Origin: Anaerophilus nitritigenes
GTDB lineage: Bacteria; Bacillota; Clostridia; Peptostreptococcales; Thermotaleaceae
DNA: 64,000 nt
Assembly (NCBI RefSeq): GCF_004138215.1
Contig: NZ_RYYS01000064.1
Coordinates: 1-64,000 of the forward strand
Reading direction: 5' to 3'
Shown: one piece after another, positions 16,831 through 61,725 of the stretch
How the letters are laid out: the number at the start of each line of letters is the position of its first letter
Numbering within the stretch: position 1 is the first letter of the stretch
The notes under the pieces: model-generated
What the model saw: only the letters and a program-made list of their open reading frames with translations
What the model was told of the DNA's origin: nothing
The model's database searches: none
Program-made: the position numbers and the translations under genes

Positions 16831-16854
16831 TTATATATATAATAAGATTAATAG

Positions 16855-17100
16855 TAATGATGGGAAGAGTAAGGATATGGATTTGCAAAAGAGAGCCAGG
16901 ATTGCTGAGAACTGGTGCAAGGAAGATCTTGAAGATGGCCCCTAAACTGCATAGCTGAAAATGTTTTAGGCTATGCCGGAGTTGCATCCGTTAAAGGTGC
17001 AAAGTGAATTTCACTTACTAAGGTCTATATTGTGAAATATAGACAAATTAGGGTGGTAACGCGAGTAGATCTCGTCCCTTATCTTGGGGCGGGATTTTTT
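16855..17100 (+). promoter_or_regulatory. T-box leader for methionyl-tRNA synthetase
   Basis: Classic T-box architecture. Stem I carries GAGAGCCAGGATTGCTGAGAAC (16890s, AG-bulge/distal loop region), and the likely specifier AUG is at 16935-16937 in GAAGATGG. The T-box AGGGTGGTAACGCG lies at about 17050-17063, and a competing terminator CTCGTCCC...GGGGCGGGATTTTTT at 17071-17100. Uncharged tRNA-Met pairs with the specifier and T-box, preventing the terminator. The match between the AUG specifier and the downstream metG is strong support. Confidence 0.95.
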
Positions 17101-30176: not shown

Positions 30177-31295
30177 ATGCTTACATCATTTGTAAAATCA
30201 TTATTTCTTATTTTTATGGCAGAAATGGGCGATAAAACACAAATTCTTGCTATGACTTTTGCTACAAAATTTACAGTATATGAAGTTTTAATAGGGGTTT
30301 TTATAGGTTCTTTATTAAATCATGGAATTGCAGTAGCTTTAGGGGCATATCTTTCAAATGTGATTCCACTAGACAAAATGCAGATTGTAGCAGGTTTTTT
30401 ATTTATAGGATTTGGCCTTTGGACTTTAAAAAAAGATGAAGAAGAACAAGAGCAACAAAACAGGAATATAGGACCTATTTTAACAGTAGCTGTGGCATTT
30501 TTTATTGGAGAACTTGGAGATAAAACTCAGCTTAGTGCCATTACTTTAGCAGTAGATTCTTCATATCCTATATTTGTATTGATAGGAACTGTATCAGGAA
30601 TGTTACTTACCAGTGGACTTGCAATAGTAGTAGGAAGTAAAATTGGAGATAAAGTTCCTGAAATAGCTATTAAAATAGCTTCTGCTAGTATATTTATGAT
30701 CTTTGGAGTGACTAAATTGTATAATACTATTCCTAAATTGTATATTACTCCTATAAATATAAGTATATTTTTTATTGTAATAGGAGTCTGTATATATTTT
30801 TTAGTAACACCTATGATCAAGGAGAAAACAGAAGGTGCTTTATCTTGTTTTAAAGAAGCAGCTATTACTCTTTATGATCATGCTCAAGAAATGCAACAAA
30901 ATTTAGAAAAAATTTGTTTAGGAGAAACAGAATGTGGACCATGTGAAGGAAGACATTGTATGATTGGATATACAAAGAAGTTGATAGAAAACATTATTCA
31001 AAATGAATCTCTACCTAAAGGACAAATAAATATTTTAAAAGAAAGTTTAAATAAAAACTTTGATGAAGAAAGAGTCATTTATGCTTTAAGTGTAGTACTT
31101 TTATATTTTCATAATAGTAAAGAGAAAGATTATAAAGCTGATAAAAGAATTCATCAAGTTAGAAATATGTTAGAAATCATATTAATAGGAGAAATTTTAG
31201 AATATAAAGATATGGAAAATTACTTAAAAGAATTAAAGAAAAAAAATGAAGATACACAAATGAAGTTACAAGATCAAATTTGTAAAAATATATAA
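30177..31295 (+). CDS. UPF0016 (TMEM165/GDT1-type) cation transporter with Cys-containing C-terminal extension
   Basis: 372 residues. Two homologous halves each carry the family metal motif, EMGDKT (16-21) and ELGDKT (112-117), within six to seven membrane helices up to about residue 208. Family members export Mn2+ or Ca2+, and the Mn riboswitch upstream argues for Mn2+ efflux. The family is normally about 190-240 residues. Here about 160 extra cytosolic residues follow, with a Cys cluster CLGETECGPCEGRHC near residue 250 and then helical, charged sequence. The extension could sense or chelate a metal; this is inference. Strong AAAAGGAGGAC ribosome site. Confidence 0.85.
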   Translation: MLTSFVKSLFLIFMAEMGDKTQILAMTFATKFTVYEVLIGVFIGSLLNHGIAVALGAYLSNVIPLDKMQIVAGFLFIGFGLWTLKKDEEEQEQQNRNIGPILTVAVAFFIGELGDKTQLSAITLAVDSSYPIFVLIGTVSGMLLTSGLAIVVGSKIGDKVPEIAIKIASASIFMIFGVTKLYNTIPKLYITPINISIFFIVIGVCIYFLVTPMIKEKTEGALSCFKEAAITLYDHAQEMQQNLEKICLGETECGPCEGRHCMIGYTKKLIENIIQNESLPKGQINILKESLNKNFDEERVIYALSVVLLYFHNSKEKDYKADKRIHQVRNMLEIILIGEILEYKDMENYLKELKKKNEDTQMKLQDQICKNI

Positions 31296-31503
31296 TATTA
31301 CATAAAATACTATAAATTATAAAATATGTGATTTCAATAAAAAAATAAAAGGAAGTTAAAGGTGATAAAGATAAAAGACTTAATGATGAAAAGATTTCAT
31401 TTATAGAGTGTTTTATTCAATTTGATCAAAATACAGTATAAAGAAATTTTTAGATGTTAAGGTATTATTTTTACTAAAGATAGAAAAATCTACTGGCATA
31501 TGC

Positions 31504-31509
31504 TATAAT
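31504..31509 (+). promoter_or_regulatory. Extended -10 promoter of the B12-controlled operon
   Basis: TGCTATAAT (-10 TATAAT at 31504-31509 with an upstream TG) lies 24 bases before the cobalamin aptamer. No clear -35 hexamer is seen at the right distance. Confidence 0.55.
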
Positions 31510-31532
31510 ATAATAAAAAAAATCAATATATG

Positions 31533-31684
31533 TCGATAGGTGTCTATTAGATGAAAAGGGAAGCAGGTGAAAATCCTGCGCGGTGCCGCCGCTGTAAAAT
31601 GGTAGTCTTAGCTTATAACCACTAGGAAACTGGGAAGGAAAGCAAAAAGATGATGACCATAAGCCAGAAGACCTGCCTATTATG
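31533..31684 (+). promoter_or_regulatory. Cobalamin riboswitch aptamer
   Basis: Conserved core elements are present in order: GATAGGTG, GGGAAGCAGGTGAAAATCC, GCGCGGTGCCGCCGCTGTAA, and the B12 box GCCAGAAGACCTGCC near 31662-31677. It binds adenosyl- or methylcobalamin-type cofactors and shuts off downstream genes when cobalamin is plentiful. The gap from 31296 to the promoter holds only AT-rich sequence and a possible ORF remnant (about 31338-31440). Confidence 0.96.
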
Positions 31685-31759
31685 ACGAGCACGTAAACCC
31701 TACGGGTCATAGGGAGGTGTACATAGAAGTAACTTTTAAAAAGTTTATATTATTTTGTA

Positions 31760-31790
31760 TGTAACCTCTCTATTTGAGAGGTTTTTTATT
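31760..31790 (+). terminator. Expression-platform terminator of the cobalamin riboswitch
   Basis: AACCTCTC / GAGAGGTT stem with a TATTT loop and a T run. GGGAGGT at 31711-31717 can pair with the 5' arm as an antiterminator. Confidence 0.85.
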
Positions 31791-31824
31791 GGAAAATTTT
31801 TAAGTAAAAAGGAGGTGATATAAA

Positions 31825-32496
31825 TTGTGGACTTCAATTTTTACTATGATTTTTGCTTTGTTTGTATTGAGTATAAAAACAGGAATGATTTTAGGAGTAT
31901 CTTCTACAAATAAAAAGTATATGGCGTGGATGAGCTTTTTATTTTCAAGTATTTTGTATGGTTTAAGTATTTTTCTTACGAGCTATATGAAATATATTGC
32001 TCATCTTATTGATCGATATACTTTTATAGGTTCTATGATTTTGGCTATATTTTTAATTTATTTAGGACTTCATAACTCAGATTCTTACCAAGAAAGTATG
32101 GGTCATAAAATACTTGCGTATCTACCTTGTCCTTTTTGCCTTTTGGCTATGTCTATTAGTATTATGCTTTCAAAGGTACAGTTAAAAAGAACAGATCATC
32201 TACTAGAAATTACTATATCTATTTTGTTTTTTATATTTATATTTTTGGTAGCTACTGGAATGAAGTGGATGACAAAACGTACACAGGTAAATCCATCAAA
32301 TATATTAAATAGTATTTTATTATTCTTTGGAATTTTCACATTACTTTTAGGATTGTTTATTCCCAATTATGTAAGTTCTGCAAAGATGAACTTCTCTCCA
32401 ATAAAAGTAGATTCATTTAAAATATTAAAAACAGTATGTATTGGAATGATTGGAGTCATTAGTATGGGATTTGTTCATTATAAAATAAAAAATTAA
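31825..32496 (+). CDS. DUF2162 membrane protein (HmuV-like)
   Basis: 223 residues, TTG start with GGAGGTG 7 bases upstream. Six to seven hydrophobic segments; a conserved PCPFC motif sits at about residue 100 at the edge of a helix. DUF2162 proteins are found beside CobN-like chelatases in archaea, clostridia and Bacteroidota, where the equivalent in heme uptake operons is HmuV. It probably belongs to a membrane complex with the ExbB-like and DUF2149 proteins. What it moves, if anything, is unknown. First gene behind the cobalamin riboswitch. Confidence 0.8.
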   Translation: MWTSIFTMIFALFVLSIKTGMILGVSSTNKKYMAWMSFLFSSILYGLSIFLTSYMKYIAHLIDRYTFIGSMILAIFLIYLGLHNSDSYQESMGHKILAYLPCPFCLLAMSISIMLSKVQLKRTDHLLEITISILFFIFIFLVATGMKWMTKRTQVNPSNILNSILLFFGIFTLLLGLFIPNYVSSAKMNFSPIKVDSFKILKTVCIGMIGVISMGFVHYKIKN

Positions 32497-32582
32497 AGAA
32501 GTTTATTTTTGAAAGTAGAGAAATTCTAAGAATGAGTTAGTATCTTAAAGAAAAATTTAATTTATAGAGGGAGGATATAAAA

Positions 32583-33266
32583 TTGAATATTGTAGGTTCT
32601 CAGTGGTTGACTACTATACTACATGCTATTGCACAAAGTTTTTTAATACCTGTAATTCTAGGACTACTTTTTATGGTGTTATTTATTTTTATGGAGTTTG
32701 GGCACTTTATTGCTGAGAGGCAAAAAAGAAAGGAATACAAAAAGAATGAGTTGGTAGAAGTATTTTGCCACGTACAAGATGAAGTTTGGAAAAAAAATAA
32801 TTTATGTCAAGTTGTAGAACAAAGTGGATTGTCGAAAAGACAAAAAGATATTTTGCTTAATTATATTGAAAAAAAGAATATAGATCAAAGTGCTAAAAAA
32901 GCATTGGCTATAGATATTTTAGATCAAGAAGAGTCTAGAATAAAAAAAATATTAGACAAGACAGATTTAATTACAAAGCTAGGCCCGGTATTAGGACTTA
33001 TGGGAACTCTCATTCCATTAGGACCAGGACTAGGGCAGCTAGGACAAGGAGATGTAGCCGGTCTTTCTGAATCTATGATCATTGCCTTTGATACTACTGT
33101 AGTAGGAGTAGCTGCGGGTGCATTAGCATCTATGATATCTAAAGTAAGAAAAAGATGGTATCAAAAGGACTTAAATCGTATGGAAGTATTATTAGAACTT
33201 ATTGATGGAGGGGAAGAGGTTGCTCAGGAGACAGAAAAGAAGAATGTTAGACGAGGAGGAAACTGA
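32583..33266 (+). CDS. MotA/TolQ/ExbB-family proton channel (HmuU-like)
   Basis: 227 residues, TTG start behind GGGAGG. One membrane helix near the N terminus (about 15-38), a cytosolic region of about 90 residues, then two helices in the TolQ/ExbB core (LGPVLGLMGTLIPLGPGLGQL, about residues 137-157, and IIAFDTTVVGVAAGALASM, about 168-186). The family harvests proton-motive force to move a partner protein. With no outer membrane or TonB in a Gram-positive, the likely partners are the DUF2149 protein and the extracellular CobN-like protein encoded next. Its 3' end overlaps the DUF2149 gene. Confidence 0.88.
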   Translation: MNIVGSQWLTTILHAIAQSFLIPVILGLLFMVLFIFMEFGHFIAERQKRKEYKKNELVEVFCHVQDEVWKKNNLCQVVEQSGLSKRQKDILLNYIEKKNIDQSAKKALAIDILDQEESRIKKILDKTDLITKLGPVLGLMGTLIPLGPGLGQLGQGDVAGLSESMIIAFDTTVVGVAAGALASMISKVRKRWYQKDLNRMEVLLELIDGGEEVAQETEKKNVRRGGN

Positions 33267-33573
33267 TCCACTATCAGGTATGGCCAATTTGATGGATGTA
33301 ATGATGGTGTTTTGCTGTGGACTTATGGTAGCTTTAGTTGTTTCTTGGAACCTTCAAAGTGTTATTTTTAAGGAGAAAACACCAGAAGAAAGACAAAGAA
33401 TGCAGCAAAGACTTCAGCAAATTATGGAGGTGGATAAAGGAAGAGAATTGAAAGAAGTACCTGATTTTGAAGAGGGGTCAGGAGAAGGCTTCAATGAAAT
33501 GGGAACTGTGTTTCAAGATCCTAAAACAGGAAAACTCATTTTAATTGAAGGAAATATGAAAAAAAATAAATAA
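33220..33573 (+). CDS. DUF2149 protein, ExbD-like partner (HmuT-like)
   Basis: About 117 residues from the TTG at 33220, which follows GGAGGGG by 6 bases; an ATG at 33244 is an alternative. The N-terminal basic RRQKRR is followed by DPLSGMANLMDVMMVFCCGLMVALVVSW, a single membrane helix starting with an Asp-rich turn. This is the family hallmark and resembles the ExbD/TolR anchor. A soluble domain follows outside. It overlaps the ExbB-like gene by 47 bases and precedes the CobN-like gene by 13. Confidence 0.8.
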   Translation: MLRRQKRRMLDEEETDPLSGMANLMDVMMVFCCGLMVALVVSWNLQSVIFKEKTPEERQRMQQRLQQIMEVDKGRELKEVPDFEEGSGEGFNEMGTVFQDPKTGKLILIEGNMKKNK

Positions 33574-33586
33574 AGGTGGGAAGACA

Positions 33587-36500
33587 ATGAAAAGGTTTTT
33601 TAGATCTTTTATGATCTTTATGATCTTATTTACAATGATTTTAGGTATGAATATGTCTTTTGCAAGTGCACAAGGTATTACAAAAGTAGTTTTAATTCTT
33701 GGAAGTGATAGTTATATTGCTTCTGTAGCTCAAGCTTATGGAGAGATTAAAGATGAATATCCTCTAGATGTAAAGATAATCAGTACAACGAATGTAGATG
33801 CAGAAAAAGTAAAAGAAGAGTTAAAGGATGCAAATATTGCACTTATGGAGATGATAGGTTCACAAGGAATTGATAATTTAGGACCTGTGATCAAAGAGGT
33901 TCCTTCATCTTGTCATATGTACATAACAAGAAGTAGTGATTTTAGTCATGATTATCCTTCTTTAGATTATAGTAAAGAGGAGGAATTAAAAGAGTATTTT
34001 GTAAAGGGGGGAGTAGAAAATATGAAAAGACTCCTGCTTTTCTTAGGAAACCTAGGAGGAATGGAAGTCAAAGAATCTATAAAAACAGTAGATATGCCAG
34101 ATCGATTTATTTATCATCCAGATGCAGAAAATATTTCTTTTGATGTAGATCATTTTTATAAAACTATTCAAGAAGCTTTTCAAAATGATCCACAAAATAT
34201 AGGACTTATAACAAACGATATTCACCATACTGTACAAAACACTGTATATGGATCTGTCTATGATGAAAGTATCTATTTATTACAAGGATTGATAAAAGAA
34301 AGTGTAGTAAATGTAGTTTATGAAAAAGATTGGAAAGATATAGTTTTATCCTTTGAAAATTCAGATGATTTTTTAAAAACAGTAACAGATTTAGTTTATG
34401 AAAAAGATGATCCACAAAAGACAGCTATGATCATAGATGCAGCTTATACATCATTAAAAAATCATAGTACAGTGACAACAGATGATTTATATGATGCTAT
34501 TATGAATCAACTCAACGGATTTACAGATACTGTACTTGTTGAAAAAATAAGACAAAGTATTATAAAAGATCCTAACATGCCAGGTGCATTCGAAAATCTA
34601 AACGCGTATAAAGCTTGGTATAAAGTAAGCAATCATAAAAATGATGGACCATGGATTGGAGTAAGCACATATAATAGTGCTTTTAAAAATGATGATACAG
34701 ATATGTATATAGCTTTATTAAAAGAATTAGAACAAAATAATGCAAATGTTATATTTACTCTTACAGATAGTAAGAGAGAAAACTTGATCAAAGATTTTTA
34801 TATAGAAGAAAATAAACCAAATATAGATGTATACATAGCTGGAATGGGATTTAATTTTATTAGTGGAAGCCCTGAAAAAGCAGTAGAACTTTTTAAAGAT
34901 TTAAATATACCTGTAATTACACCTGTATATAGTAGTGATTTAGAAGAATGGAAAGAAAATCCTGCAGGTATATCAAGAGAGTTATATTGGCAAGTTGTAC
35001 TACCTGAATTAGACGGAAGAATTGAGCCTATATTTATGGGGGGAACAAAGGAAGTAGAAAAAGATCCTACTACAGGAGTAGCTATTCTTAAAAAGACACC
35101 TATTGATTATAATATACAAAGACTTAGTGGTCGTGCTCTTTCTTGGGCAAGTTTAAGAAATAAAGAAAATGAAGATAAAAAAATAGCTTTAGTTTATTAC
35201 AATCATGATGGAGGTAAAGATGGAATCAAAGCATCTTATTTAAATGTAATAGAAAGTGCATCCAATGTATTAGGAGCATTAAAACAAGATGGATATACAA
35301 TAGATCAACATACAGATGCAAAAACTTTAGAAGAGATGATTCAAAAGCAAGGAAGAAATGTAGGTAGTTGGGCACCAGGAGAGATGGAAAAGCTTTTACA
35401 AGAAGATATTTTAACAATATCTGTAGATGAATATATGAAATGGTATGAAAAGCTTCCTCAAATCTTAAAAGAGGAGGTAGAAAAAGAGTGGGGATCAGCT
35501 CCTGGAAATGTAATGGTTGTAGATGGAAAGATGATCATCCCAGGAATGAAGATGGGAAATGTTTTTGTAGGACCACAGCCAATGAGAGGATGGGGAGATG
35601 ATCCAAATAAAATTGCTCATTCAGCAAAGCTTCCACCAAATCATCAATATATTGCTTTTTACTTTTGGCTTCAAAATGAATTTAAAGCAGATGCAGTGAT
35701 TCATTTAGGGACTCATGGTACACTAGAATGGTTACCAGGAAAAAGTGTAGGATTAGGAGAGAATGATTGGCCAGATCAATTAATTGGAAATATGGTAAAT
35801 ATTAATCCTTATATTATGAATAATCCAGGAGAGGGAACACAAGCAAAAAGAAGAGGATATGCAGTAATTATTGATCATTTGACTCCTCCTATGGTTCAAC
35901 CAGAGCTTTATGGAGAGTTGGTTCAACTTCAAAATTTAGTAGTAAGTTATTTAGATGAAATGAGAAAAAACAATGAAGCAAGAGCTTTAGAGCTTCAAAA
36001 ACAAATAATTGAAATGGTGAAAAATAATCATATTGATCAAGAAATCAATTTGAATCTTGAAACAAACTTTTATGAATCAGCAGAAGATCTTCATGAATAC
36101 CTAGAGGATTTGGCAACAGAACTTATGCCTTATGGACTTCATACACTAGGAGTAGCACCTAAGGGAGATTTATTTGATCAAATGGTAAACTCTATCATTG
36201 GATATGATAAGAGTAGAGAAAGTGATAGAGAAACTATAGAAAAAAATTTAAGCTTGGCAAGTCAAGAAATTATCAATTTGATTCGTGCATTAAATGGAGA
36301 GTACATAGAACCAGGTCCATCAAGAGATCCTATAAGAGTTCCTGATGCTATGCCTACAGGAAGAAATTTTTCAACTTTTGACCCTAGACAAATTCCTGAT
36401 AAAGCTGCATGGGAAACAGGAAAAAAAGCTGCTGATGATCTTTTAGAAAGATATAAACAAGAAACTGGGAAATATCCTGATTCTGTAGGGGTTGTATTAT

Positions 36501-38233
36501 GGGCTATTGAAACGATGAGAACAAATGGAGAAAGTGTTGGAATGATTTTAAGAATGATAGGAACAGAGCCAGTATGGGATAAAAAAGGAAATGTAAACTC
36601 TGTAAAAGTTACACCTATAGAAGAATTAGGAAGACCTCGTGTAGATGTAGTGGTAAGTATATCAGGATTATTTAGAGATACTTTTTCAAATACAATAGGA
36701 GTTTTAGATGAAGCTTTTAGAGAAGTATCAAAAGTAGATGAAAGCAATGATCAAAATCATGTTAAAAAACACTATGATGAAATTTTAAATCAACTAAAAG
36801 AAAAAGGAGTAAGTGAAAAAGAAGCAGAATTGTTAGCAGGAGCTAGAATATTTGGAGATGCACCAGGAACTTATGGAACTGGGGTATCTACTTTGGCAGA
36901 AACTACTAGTGCTTGGGAGACACAAGATGATTTAGTAAATACTTATATGAATCGTATGTCTTATATTTATGGAAAAGAGACCTATGGAAAAGAAGCAAAG
37001 GATATATTTAAAGAGGCTCTTAAAAATGTAGATACAGTAACTCAAATAAGAGATTCTTTATGGGGAACTTTAGATAATGATGATGTGGCACAATATTTAG
37101 GAGGATTAAGACTTGCTGCTAAAGCTGCATCTGGAAAAGATATAAAAACATTTATTATCAATACAAGAAAAGCAGGAGATCCTAAAGTACAAAGTTTATC
37201 AGAATTTATATCTACAGAATTAAGAACAAGAATTTTAAATCCAAAATGGATTGAAGGAATGTTAAAGGAAGGATATGCAGGAAGTGCAGAAATAGGAAAA
37301 CATATAGGCAATATGTTTTTAATGGATGCTACTTTAGATGCAATTGATGATTGGGGATGGAAAAGTGTAGCAGATGCCATTATATTAGATGAAAATGTAA
37401 GAGCACAATTAGATCCATATGTAATGCAATCTATTATTGGATGGCAAATGGAAGCTGCAAGAAGAGATATGTGGAATGCAGATGCAGAAACTATGAAACA
37501 GATTGCTGATATTTATATTAATAATGCAGTAGAATACGGAGTAGTATGTTGTCATCATACTTGTGGAAATGTAAAGGTAAATGAACTAGCAGCAAGCTTT
37601 TCTACTCTAGATCAAGATACAATGAAAAAATTTGAAAGTATATTTAAAGATGCAACTCATAAAGATATAAAAATTGATACATCTAAAAATCAGCAACCAT
37701 CTACACCATCATCATCTTCTTCTTCAAGTAAAAATAAACCTAAACAAGAAGATATAAAACAAGAACAAGTGAAACAAGAGGAGGTAAAACAAGAAGATCC
37801 AAAAACAGAAATACCTTCTAAAGAACAACAACAAGCAGATGAAAAGATACAAAAAAATTCAAATGTACAAGAAACACCAAAAAGCATAGTAACACCTACA
37901 GAAGTTGTAAAACAAGAAGCTACAGCTGTTCAAAAGGGGATAGCAAAAGAAAGTGAAGATCAAAAGATCAATACAAATAGTACAGGTGTTATTAAAGAAA
38001 CTCAAGACCTATCAAAAAGTAATGTAGGAAACAGACAAGAGCAATTAAATGAAAAAAAAGAAGAACCAGAAGAACCAGAACAAGCACAAGAAGCTATGGG
38101 AAAAGCATATGAAATCGAGAAAAAAGAAACTAAAAAGGAAGCCAGCAATGGAGTAGCACTGCCTGCTATTGTAATTGGATTAGGACTTGTAGCTTTAATA
38201 GGAAGAGGATATTTTAAAAGAAGAAAATATTAA
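33587..38233 (+). CDS. Secreted, membrane-anchored CobN-like chelatase (HmuS-like)
   Basis: 1548 residues. An N-terminal signal peptide (about 1-29, ending SFASA) is followed by a full CobN/ChlH/BchH chelatase body (about 30-1350). It carries HLGTHGTLEWLPGKS near residue 705 and VVCCHHTCGN near residue 1320. A low-complexity Ser then Lys/Gln/Glu linker (about 1365-1515) leads to a C-terminal helix (about 1522-1542) and RRKY tail. This would hold the enzyme on the outer face of the membrane with a flexible tether; there is no LPxTG site. True CobN is cytosolic and needs CobS/CobT. An exported CobN with DUF2149, ExbB-like and DUF2162 partners matches HmuS, described in Bacteroides as an anaerobic heme dechelatase. 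B12 riboswitch control here points to corrinoid or cobalt as substrate, which is inference. Confidence 0.9.
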   Translation: MKRFFRSFMIFMILFTMILGMNMSFASAQGITKVVLILGSDSYIASVAQAYGEIKDEYPLDVKIISTTNVDAEKVKEELKDANIALMEMIGSQGIDNLGPVIKEVPSSCHMYITRSSDFSHDYPSLDYSKEEELKEYFVKGGVENMKRLLLFLGNLGGMEVKESIKTVDMPDRFIYHPDAENISFDVDHFYKTIQEAFQNDPQNIGLITNDIHHTVQNTVYGSVYDESIYLLQGLIKESVVNVVYEKDWKDIVLSFENSDDFLKTVTDLVYEKDDPQKTAMIIDAAYTSLKNHSTVTTDDLYDAIMNQLNGFTDTVLVEKIRQSIIKDPNMPGAFENLNAYKAWYKVSNHKNDGPWIGVSTYNSAFKNDDTDMYIALLKELEQNNANVIFTLTDSKRENLIKDFYIEENKPNIDVYIAGMGFNFISGSPEKAVELFKDLNIPVITPVYSSDLEEWKENPAGISRELYWQVVLPELDGRIEPIFMGGTKEVEKDPTTGVAILKKTPIDYNIQRLSGRALSWASLRNKENEDKKIALVYYNHDGGKDGIKASYLNVIESASNVLGALKQDGYTIDQHTDAKTLEEMIQKQGRNVGSWAPGEMEKLLQEDILTISVDEYMKWYEKLPQILKEEVEKEWGSAPGNVMVVDGKMIIPGMKMGNVFVGPQPMRGWGDDPNKIAHSAKLPPNHQYIAFYFWLQNEFKADAVIHLGTHGTLEWLPGKSVGLGENDWPDQLIGNMVNINPYIMNNPGEGTQAKRRGYAVIIDHLTPPMVQPELYGELVQLQNLVVSYLDEMRKNNEARALELQKQIIEMVKNNHIDQEINLNLETNFYESAEDLHEYLEDLATELMPYGLHTLGVAPKGDLFDQMVNSIIGYDKSRESDRETIEKNLSLASQEIINLIRALNGEYIEPGPSRDPIRVPDAMPTGRNFSTFDPRQIPDKAAWETGKKAADDLLERYKQETGKYPDSVGVVLWAIETMRTNGESVGMILRMIGTEPVWDKKGNVNSVKVTPIEELGRPRVDVVVSISGLFRDTFSNTIGVLDEAFREVSKVDESNDQNHVKKHYDEILNQLKEKGVSEKEAELLAGARIFGDAPGTYGTGVSTLAETTSAWETQDDLVNTYMNRMSYIYGKETYGKEAKDIFKEALKNVDTVTQIRDSLWGTLDNDDVAQYLGGLRLAAKAASGKDIKTFIINTRKAGDPKVQSLSEFISTELRTRILNPKWIEGMLKEGYAGSAEIGKHIGNMFLMDATLDAIDDWGWKSVADAIILDENVRAQLDPYVMQSIIGWQMEAARRDMWNADAETMKQIADIYINNAVEYGVVCCHHTCGNVKVNELAASFSTLDQDTMKKFESIFKDATHKDIKIDTSKNQQPSTPSSSSSSSKNKPKQEDIKQEQVKQEEVKQEDPKTEIPSKEQQQADEKIQKNSNVQETPKSIVTPTEVVKQEATAVQKGIAKESEDQKINTNSTGVIKETQDLSKSNVGNRQEQLNEKKEEPEEPEQAQEAMGKAYEIEKKETKKEASNGVALPAIVIGLGLVALIGRGYFKRRKY

Positions 38234-38265
38234 AAAATAAACCGCCAATTGGCGGTTTATTTTTG
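38234..38265. terminator. Bidirectional terminator
   Basis: AAATAAACCGCC / GGCGGTTTATTT stem with AATT loop between the convergent CobN-like and M20 genes. It overlaps the 3' end of the latter. Confidence 0.9.
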
Positions 38266-61535: not shown

Positions 61536-61594
61536 CTGATTATAGCAAAAGTACATCTATAAAAATATGAATACACATATAGATCTACATAGTT

Positions 61595-61704
61595 CTCTTC
61601 TTCCATCCAGACTATACTGTCGGCCTTGGAATTTAACCAAGTCAACCACAAAAGTGGCTCGCGGGCTATACCGCCGGTCGGGAATTACACCCTGCCCTGA
61701 AGAT
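61595..61704 (-). promoter_or_regulatory. FMN riboswitch (RFN element) aptamer
   Basis: On the minus strand: ATCTTCAGGGCAGGGTG, AATTCCCGACCGGCGGTA, GCCCGCGAGCC, then AATTCCAAGGCCGACAG and AGTCTGGATGGAAGA. This is the complete conserved RFN core. Represses the rib operon when FMN is plentiful. Confidence 0.97.
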
Positions 61705-61725
61705 TTTATTCACTTGTATGGAAAT

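Follow-up and report, generated by a model that had tools for sequence, protein, structure and literature searches.

The closest described systems to the one analysed here are the HmuSTUV complexes of Bacteroidota, in which HmuS, an exported, membrane-anchored protein of the CobN superfamily, stands with HmuT, an ExbB-type channel (HmuU), and a DUF2149 protein (HmuV) (PDB 9d26, PMC12583661). HmuS is a heme dechelatase (PMC12583661, PMC13227078), its residue His538 is essential for heme turnover (PMC12583661), and HmuV has been described as ExbD-like (PMC10100974). Cobalamin riboswitches lie ahead of some Hmu-like operons in Bacteroidota (PMC10100974). In particular, the Hmu-like operon of Bacteroides fragilis (PMC10100974; BtuS1/2, PMC6460266) has a CobN-like exported protein, which we infer to be BtuS1, behind such a riboswitch. 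The cobN cluster of plasmid pSZ77 of Trichlorobacter (Geobacter) lovleyi comprises B12 riboswitches, DUF2162, ExbB, DUF2149, and an exported CobN; its authors found no CobST and left its function open (PMC3403914). The role of many archaeal 'CobN' proteins has also been reported as unknown (PMC12583661). Our subject is an operon in a 64,000-nt stretch of the genome of the anaerobic Gram-positive bacterium Anaerophilus nitritigenes (contig NZ_RYYS01000064.1, positions 1–64,000; the window), which comprises, on the plus strand, a cobalamin riboswitch leader, followed by a DUF2162 gene, exbB, a DUF2149 gene, and cobN, followed by a palindromic terminator (Table 1). Like HmuSTUV, it combines an exported, anchored CobN-superfamily protein that conserves the catalytic histidine with ExbB-type and DUF2149 partners; unlike HmuSTUV, it is under a B12 riboswitch rather than HmuY/iron control and has DUF2162 in place of HmuT. 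The B. fragilis and pSZ77 systems differ from it in belonging to Gram-negative organisms with TonB receptors and, for pSZ77, in having a second, ExbB-ExbD-TonB set.

On gene content and active-site motifs, the module belongs with the exported chelatase systems of HmuS type, as a variant whose active site is of the cobaltochelatase type and whose expression is under B12 control, and it is more general than was assumed in the sequence-only reading, an earlier note on the window made without database searches. In our best model, to which we assign a probability of about 0.4, an extracellular cobalt chelatase driven by ExbB/DUF2149 would free cobalt from chelates and DUF2162 would import the metal; both the direction and the substrate we infer. 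Specifically, low B12 would lead the riboswitch to let the operon be made, placing the chelatase on the outer surface. ExbB/DUF2149 would move the chelatase via a juxtamembrane motif, the YE box, at the expense of a proton (or sodium) gradient, and would thereby replace the ATP-driven ChlI/ChlD or CobS/CobT motors of cytosolic relatives. In B12-making Bacillota, the chelatase would most likely free cobalt from extracellular cobalt-tetrapyrrole chelates, and the freed cobalt would pass through a CCHHTC cluster of CobN to a CPxC-bearing DUF2162 permease, and onward to CbiK and de novo B12 synthesis. The whole would be an analogue of heme iron harvest by HmuSTUV, with cobalt as the metal. The B12-linked system driven by proton-motive force that the earlier note proposed is thus plausible, with the corrections given below.

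Rfam, Pfam, and hydropathy analyses confirmed the four-gene operon behind a cobalamin riboswitch, as first described. A promoter-like site lies 14 bases upstream of the riboswitch. Downstream of the aptamer, an antiterminator stem (31712–31724 paired with 31759–31770) shares bases with the 5′ arm of an intrinsic terminator (31763–31787); read by the established logic of this riboswitch class, the leader would be set up to have the operon made when B12 is low. Among 398 Bacillota genomes, 34 contain DUF2149 and nine contain DUF2162 above the cutoff, and each of the nine DUF2162 genes is preceded on its own strand by a cobalamin riboswitch. Four extra loci, from Desulfotruncus, Desulfotomaculum, Desulfofundulus, and a genome labelled Actinobacteria (L068) but counted as Bacillota because it groups with genomes of the Bacillota sample, are likewise behind cobalamin riboswitches, tandem in three of the four. 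A cobalamin riboswitch thus lies ahead of 13/13 Bacillota DUF2162 operons (the window and 12 further loci), and the recurrence of the same gene set in those 12 loci indicates that the operon is not a chance arrangement. At locus L065 (genome G118), the riboswitch lies 6 kb upstream and leads nrdJ, btuF, btuD, and btuC before the module. Loci free of a riboswitch are without DUF2162 (L064), have a different gene order (L067), or have a broken CobN (L061). Control of homologous operons by heme or iron, which the sequence-only reading had named as a potential objection, was not seen in Bacillota. B12 riboswitches are also present at some Pseudomonadota loci and on the T. lovleyi plasmid, and absent from several other Pseudomonadota loci. 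Cobalt ECF transporter genes adjoin the module in L146 (riboswitch-cbiMNQO-riboswitch-DUF2162), in L068, and in some methanogens.

The CobN protein has a hydropathy-supported N-terminal signal segment and C-terminal helix, as had been claimed, with the tail RGYFKRRKY after the helix and a low-complexity linker within the protein. From this topology, the chelatase body is predicted to lie outside, tethered to the external side of the membrane. When scored against solved structures, a profile built from 14 exported CobN gave 804 bits for HmuS, 794 for ChlH, and 739 for CobN; these overall scores do not decide the chelatase type, and specific residues do. In particular, HmuS His538 is kept as CobN His710, within HLGTHG (HmuS pattern HFG(T/A)HG), and all 14 aligned exported proteins share His710 and the motif 2 acidic residues without exception. 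Motif 2 is LDNDDVAQYLGG in the window CobN (signature LDNDDVxQYLGG), versus LSLDHxxEFMGG in HmuS (9d26), giving D..Q rather than H..E; the HmuS proteins of HmuY-containing operons (Prevotella nigrescens, Aureibacter) retain LSLDHVYEFMGG. The solved cobaltochelatases 9uk9 and 7c6o, which represent the CobN of CobNST and CobN-ChlID (aerobic cobaltochelatase) and belong to the same fold family, carry LLDSDDYYQFEGG and IADSDDYFQYHGG, the DD..Q type that the window CobN shares. The Met-rich insertion of HmuS was not found in the window CobN, where the region has 47 residues with one Met, versus 261 and 345 in P. nigrescens and Aureibacter HmuS. The HmuS heme ligands Met79 and His254 are missing as well, with Ile and Ser at the CobN positions aligned by profile. 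In a tree of 37 proteins, 12 Bacillota exported CobN and two methanogen proteins form a clade apart from HmuS, with 100% support in the Shimodaira–Hasegawa-like approximate likelihood ratio test (SH-aLRT). Motifs and tree strongly support placing the window CobN in the CobN/ChlH/HmuS superfamily with an active site of cobaltochelatase type, not HmuS type. The HmuS-like identity assumed earlier is therefore not upheld: a genuine HmuS heme dechelatase placed by chance under a B12 riboswitch would share the superfamily, the export, the ExbB/DUF2149 partners, and the marginally best profile score, but it would have to lack the LSLDHxxEFMGG motif, both heme ligands, and the insertion and to branch away from HmuS, and we consider it very unlikely.

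The window CobN also differs from CobNST and CobN-ChlID, in being exported and anchored, in having no CobT, and in having ExbB/DUF2149 partners in place of AAA+ ATPases. CobT (PF06213) is absent from 16/16 genomes tested, including the whole genome of A. nitritigenes, with a positive control detected. The sequence-only reading had noted no CobS or CobT in the window and had regarded their presence in the genome as a sign of an ordinary cobaltochelatase; the absence of CobT holds for window and genome alike, but an ATPase pair is present, as ChlI/ChlD homologues encoded on another contig (C77, L035 11496–18191) beside a FecCD-type ABC transporter and a second CobN. The second CobN has 1234 residues, no anchor, and no riboswitch, and its motif 2, VDLDHYYEFFGG, is of HmuS type (LDHYYEF); it is possibly a cytosolic heme dechelatase, and a simple 19-bp scan found no Fur box near it. 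AAA_lid_2 (the ChlI/MoxR lid) is absent from seven other module-bearing genomes (G051, G084, G118, G162, G399, G400, and G401), which leaves the exported chelatase of those cells with no ChlI-type ATPase to use. It thus appears extremely improbable that the window CobN is an ordinary cobaltochelatase powered by ATP through the ChlI and ChlD of this genome, whose genes are at least at hand: the two adjoin a different, cytosolic CobN, the signal peptide and anchor are predicted to place the window CobN outside, and CobT is absent from all 16 genomes tested and AAA_lid_2 from the seven listed.

The genome has ten cobalamin riboswitches, leading cbiMQO-cbiK, btuFCD, cobT (phosphoribosyltransferase), a cbi/cob operon including cbiC, and several large exported proteins. 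This gene content indicates de novo B12 synthesis by way of CbiK, at which cobalt can enter early; no CobN is therefore required for it. Three of the riboswitches (L137, L139, and L145) lead very large exported surface proteins, one of 3915 aa, with DUF4430 in two of the operons; these proteins are possibly surface corrinoid binders. A cobalamin riboswitch at L142 (12431–12607) has no gene directly downstream on its strand and is followed by a convergent gene.

Known ExbB-type motors are those of TonB, Tol, and flagella. The DUF2149 gene of the window overlaps the 3′ end of exbB, with an alternative ATG start at 33244, and its product has one membrane helix (residues 30–48) containing Asp32, which is at least 90% conserved. 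In T. lovleyi, DUF2162-exbB-DUF2149-cobN and a separate exbB-exbD-tonB form one gene row after two riboswitches. The presence of a complete ExbB-ExbD-TonB set beside the pair implies that ExbB-DUF2149 is not simply a TonB energiser, in line with the earlier claim of a dedicated ExbB-type motor without TonB. The linker ahead of the exported-CobN anchor is unconserved except for (K/R)(A/G)(Y/F)E(I/L/V/M), the YE box, located 13–29 residues ahead of the helix. The tight YE box pattern is present in 22/40 exported CobN (0.2% in shuffled segments) and absent from the two HmuS examined. Motifs such as VYEM, VFEM, and AYEV precede the anchors of other exported proteins encoded beside ExbB-DUF2149; with truncated CobN set aside, these carry FmdE or Big_2/Fn3-type domains, and similarity to the CobN body could not be detected. 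Truncated CobN (L180, L182, and L184) had joined the client clusters by single linkage, and after reclustering without CobN, the Big_2-type and FmdE-type families come apart. A wider pattern, [AVIG][YFW][EQ][MVIL], fixed before being applied to 20 unseen loci, was found at 11/14 Bacillota loci (shuffle expectation 1.6%) and at 0/4 Pseudomonadota loci with a candidate protein; since many clients are homologous, the held-out loci are not independent, and the stronger point is recurrence in three unrelated body families. Among exported anchored proteins encoded far from ExbB-DUF2149, the YE box was found in 0/20 (Fisher p = 0.012, tight pattern). The box is not universal, being missing from the held-out Pseudomonadota CobN and from several methanogen CobN.

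We propose that the YE box is a docking site for the ExbB/DUF2149 motor. A sorting signal, akin to LPXTG or PEP-CTERM, is less likely, given the location of the box 13–29 residues ahead of the helix and its tracking of ExbB-DUF2149. By extension, and tentatively, ExbB-DUF2149 may be a general TonB-independent energy route to surface proteins in Gram-positives and archaea, gripping the YE box of unrelated clients; the client here would be a chelatase, with the proton gradient doing the work that ATP does in CobNST/ChlHID and with cobalt harvested outside the membrane. Several Pseudomonadota CobN (L193, L194, L195, L198, and L158) have a different conserved juxtamembrane segment, V[ST]G[QR][KV][LM]E-like (GQKLE-like). 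In L180, L182, and L184, ExbB-DUF2149 adjoins a 460–470 aa protein that has the C-terminal half of CobN only (PF02514 positions 718–971 in L180), with an anchor and a YE-box-like IFEI or IFEV. In Syntrophomonas (L113, 10547–12625), an exported protein with a Shr-like heme/hemoglobin-interacting domain (PF07550) follows just after ExbB-DUF2149, which suggests heme clients.

DUF2162 has about seven helices by hydropathy and, at the loci examined (14 from methanogens among them), lies in the same operon as ExbB-DUF2149 unless a contig end intervenes. CPxC or CPCC is present in 34/40 homologues; the six exceptions are from CobN-free loci, mostly of Methanosphaera or Methanobrevibacter. Of the only four cysteines in the exported CobN, three lie close to the membrane within CCHHTC. 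This cluster is present in all Bacillota CobN linked to DUF2162, with variants in most other DUF2162-linked CobN, and is absent from the CobN of L064 and beta-proteobacterial CobN, all without DUF2162. The co-occurrence of CCHHTC with DUF2162 linkage, together with CPxC, suggests a metal path from CobN to DUF2162. AlphaFold2 models of DUF2162 improved from a poor pLDDT of 70 with eight sequences to 84 with 33 sequences, and comparison with known folds (Foldseek, VIA-align) gave middling matches to MFS-type transporter halves, the best at Z 8.3, which is too weak to be decisive for helical proteins.

The occupant of the membrane-protein slot varies with context: DUF2162 is found where there are B12 riboswitches, HmuT where there is HmuY, and in Runella a protein weakly resembling NicO/DsbD_2. 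The claim that the window holds the same four families as HmuSTUV accordingly stands for three of them and fails for the fourth: Pfam finds no DUF2162 in the HmuT of Prevotella or of Aureibacter, and hhalign gives DUF2162-HmuT a probability of 0.2%, remote homology being conceivable. No relation between DUF2162 and the Runella permease was detected by hhalign. On a plasmid of Runella slithyformis (L151), a TonB receptor-permease-ExbB-DUF2149-CobN cluster is inserted between hypBF and hypCDE, a location suggestive of nickel. A module that takes another metal, nickel or iron, from tetrapyrrole chelates, with B12 control as a secondary matter, would be consistent with this location in a nickel hydrogenase cluster, with iron release by HmuS (PMC12583661), and with the presence of DUF2162 in 127/150 Methanobacteriota genomes, organisms that also need nickel; set against it are the B12 riboswitch on every Bacillota DUF2162 operon and the cobaltochelatase-type motif 2, and we judge it decidedly unlikely.

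CbiC served as a marker of corrin-ring synthesis. It is present in 12/13 Bacillota genomes with the module, the exception (G118) being 81% complete, and in 0/14 Pseudomonadota genomes with DUF2149. At the Pseudomonadota loci read closely, CobN lies beside ExbB and DUF2149, usually with no recognised DUF2162, and at one locus (L173) an unclassified membrane protein fills the DUF2162 slot and a CbiK homologue is also encoded. This gene content suggests one machine with two uses, namely metal supply in makers with DUF2162 and corrinoid handling in salvagers without it. The salvagers bear on the direction of the reaction. If the complex instead worked outside the cell to load cobalt into scavenged corrinoids that have no metal or the wrong one, ahead of import by BtuFCD, with the gradient replacing ATP, then the cobaltochelatase-type motif 2, the retention of exported CobN by Pseudomonadota auxotrophs (several with cbiA, cobO, bluB, cobU, and btuB behind B12 riboswitches), and the btuFDC genes of L065 would fit. 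Insertion leaves unexplained DUF2162, the Bacillota cysteine cluster, and the de novo corrin synthesis of most of these Bacillota, and HmuS, the closest biochemically studied exported relative, takes metal out (PMC12583661); we hold this direction possible but doubtful. The same btuFDC genes, B12 riboswitch control, and the BtuC-type ABC genes near many CobN-free ExbB-DUF2149 loci would also fit a non-catalytic corrinoid receptor driven by proton-motive force, whose old tetrapyrrole pocket hands corrinoids to BtuFCD. Gram-positive B12 transport normally needs BtuFCD alone, and the invariance of His710 and the motif 2 acidic residues argues for catalysis, making a receptor unlikely.

Several observations weigh against cobalt harvest itself. 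The Pseudomonadota relatives are without corrin synthesis, and CobN there cannot feed it. The btuF-btuD-btuC genes directly preceding the module in L065 fit corrinoid handling equally well. Homology between DUF2149 and ExbD is not detectable by sequence (a PDB search gave no ExbD match), the view of DUF2162 as a candidate metal permease draws on gene context and its CPxC motif, and a methanogen CobN (L072) adjoins DUF2162 yet is without the cysteine cluster. Removal of cobalt from an intact corrin is, moreover, chemically very hard, and the substrate may therefore be a different cobalt chelate.

The Gram-positive module, its active-site distinction, the split between makers and salvagers, and the YE box were not found in the literature searched, nor was any paper naming DUF2162; most subscription papers and all bioRxiv preprints fell outside that search. 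If cobalt harvest is correct, a motor acting on an exported chelatase in cells with no outer membrane would account for the ExbB/DUF2149 pairs that stand as orphans in Bacillota and methanogens, and would give a use for many archaeal 'CobN' proteins and a likely role for DUF2162. The difference between HmuS His1209 and Asp1166 of the window CobN could help to sort mis-annotated CobN into heme and cobalt users, and the YE box offers a handle for finding further clients of ExbB/DUF2149.

Table 1. Features of the operon, in window coordinates
Feature	Position	Strand	Evidence
Promoter-like TAGAAA-17-TATAAT, extended −10 (TG)	31481–31509	+	10/12 consensus matches; consensus match only
Cobalamin riboswitch aptamer RF00174, full length	31523–31694	+	Rfam 99.4 bits (cutoff 31.5), E 1.2e-23
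Expression platform: antiterminator and terminator	31712–31787	+	Stem pairing
DUF2162 membrane protein	31825–32496	+	Pfam 121 bits, E 6.6e-35
CPFC motif of DUF2162, residues 102–105	32128–32139	+	Sequence
MotA/TolQ/ExbB-type channel	32583–33266	+	PF01618, 42.4 bits (cutoff 22.9), E 6.9e-11
DUF2149, single-helix ExbD-like partner	33202–33573	+	Pfam E 1.4e-21
Exported CobN-type class I chelatase, 1548 aa	33587–38233	+	CobN/Mg-chelatase PF02514, 1110 bits
CobN signal peptide, residues 1–28, ASA at 26–28	33587–33670	+	Sequence; hydropathy peak at residues 8–26
CobN active-site motif 1, GTHGT, residues 708–712	35708–35722	+	Alignment with PDB 9d26; His aligned with HmuS His538
CobN active-site motif 2, LDNDDVAQYLGG	37070–37105	+	Asp1166 and Gln1169 at positions of HmuS His1209 and Glu1212
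CobN CCHHTC cysteine motif	37547–37564	+	Three of the protein's four cysteines
YE box KAYEI, CobN residues 1506–1510, proposed docking motif for ExbB/DUF2149	38102–38116	+	Motif analysis
CobN C-terminal membrane anchor, residues 1521–1539	38147–38203	+	Hydropathy
Palindromic terminator between cobN and convergent M20 peptidase gene	38233–38264		Sequence

Immediately before the operon and in the same orientation lies a gene for a GDT1-family protein (30177–31295), which has two GDT1 repeats and is extended at its C terminus. Elsewhere, the window has an ordinary T-box leader (16848–17082, plus strand) and an ordinary FMN riboswitch (61591–61708, minus strand).

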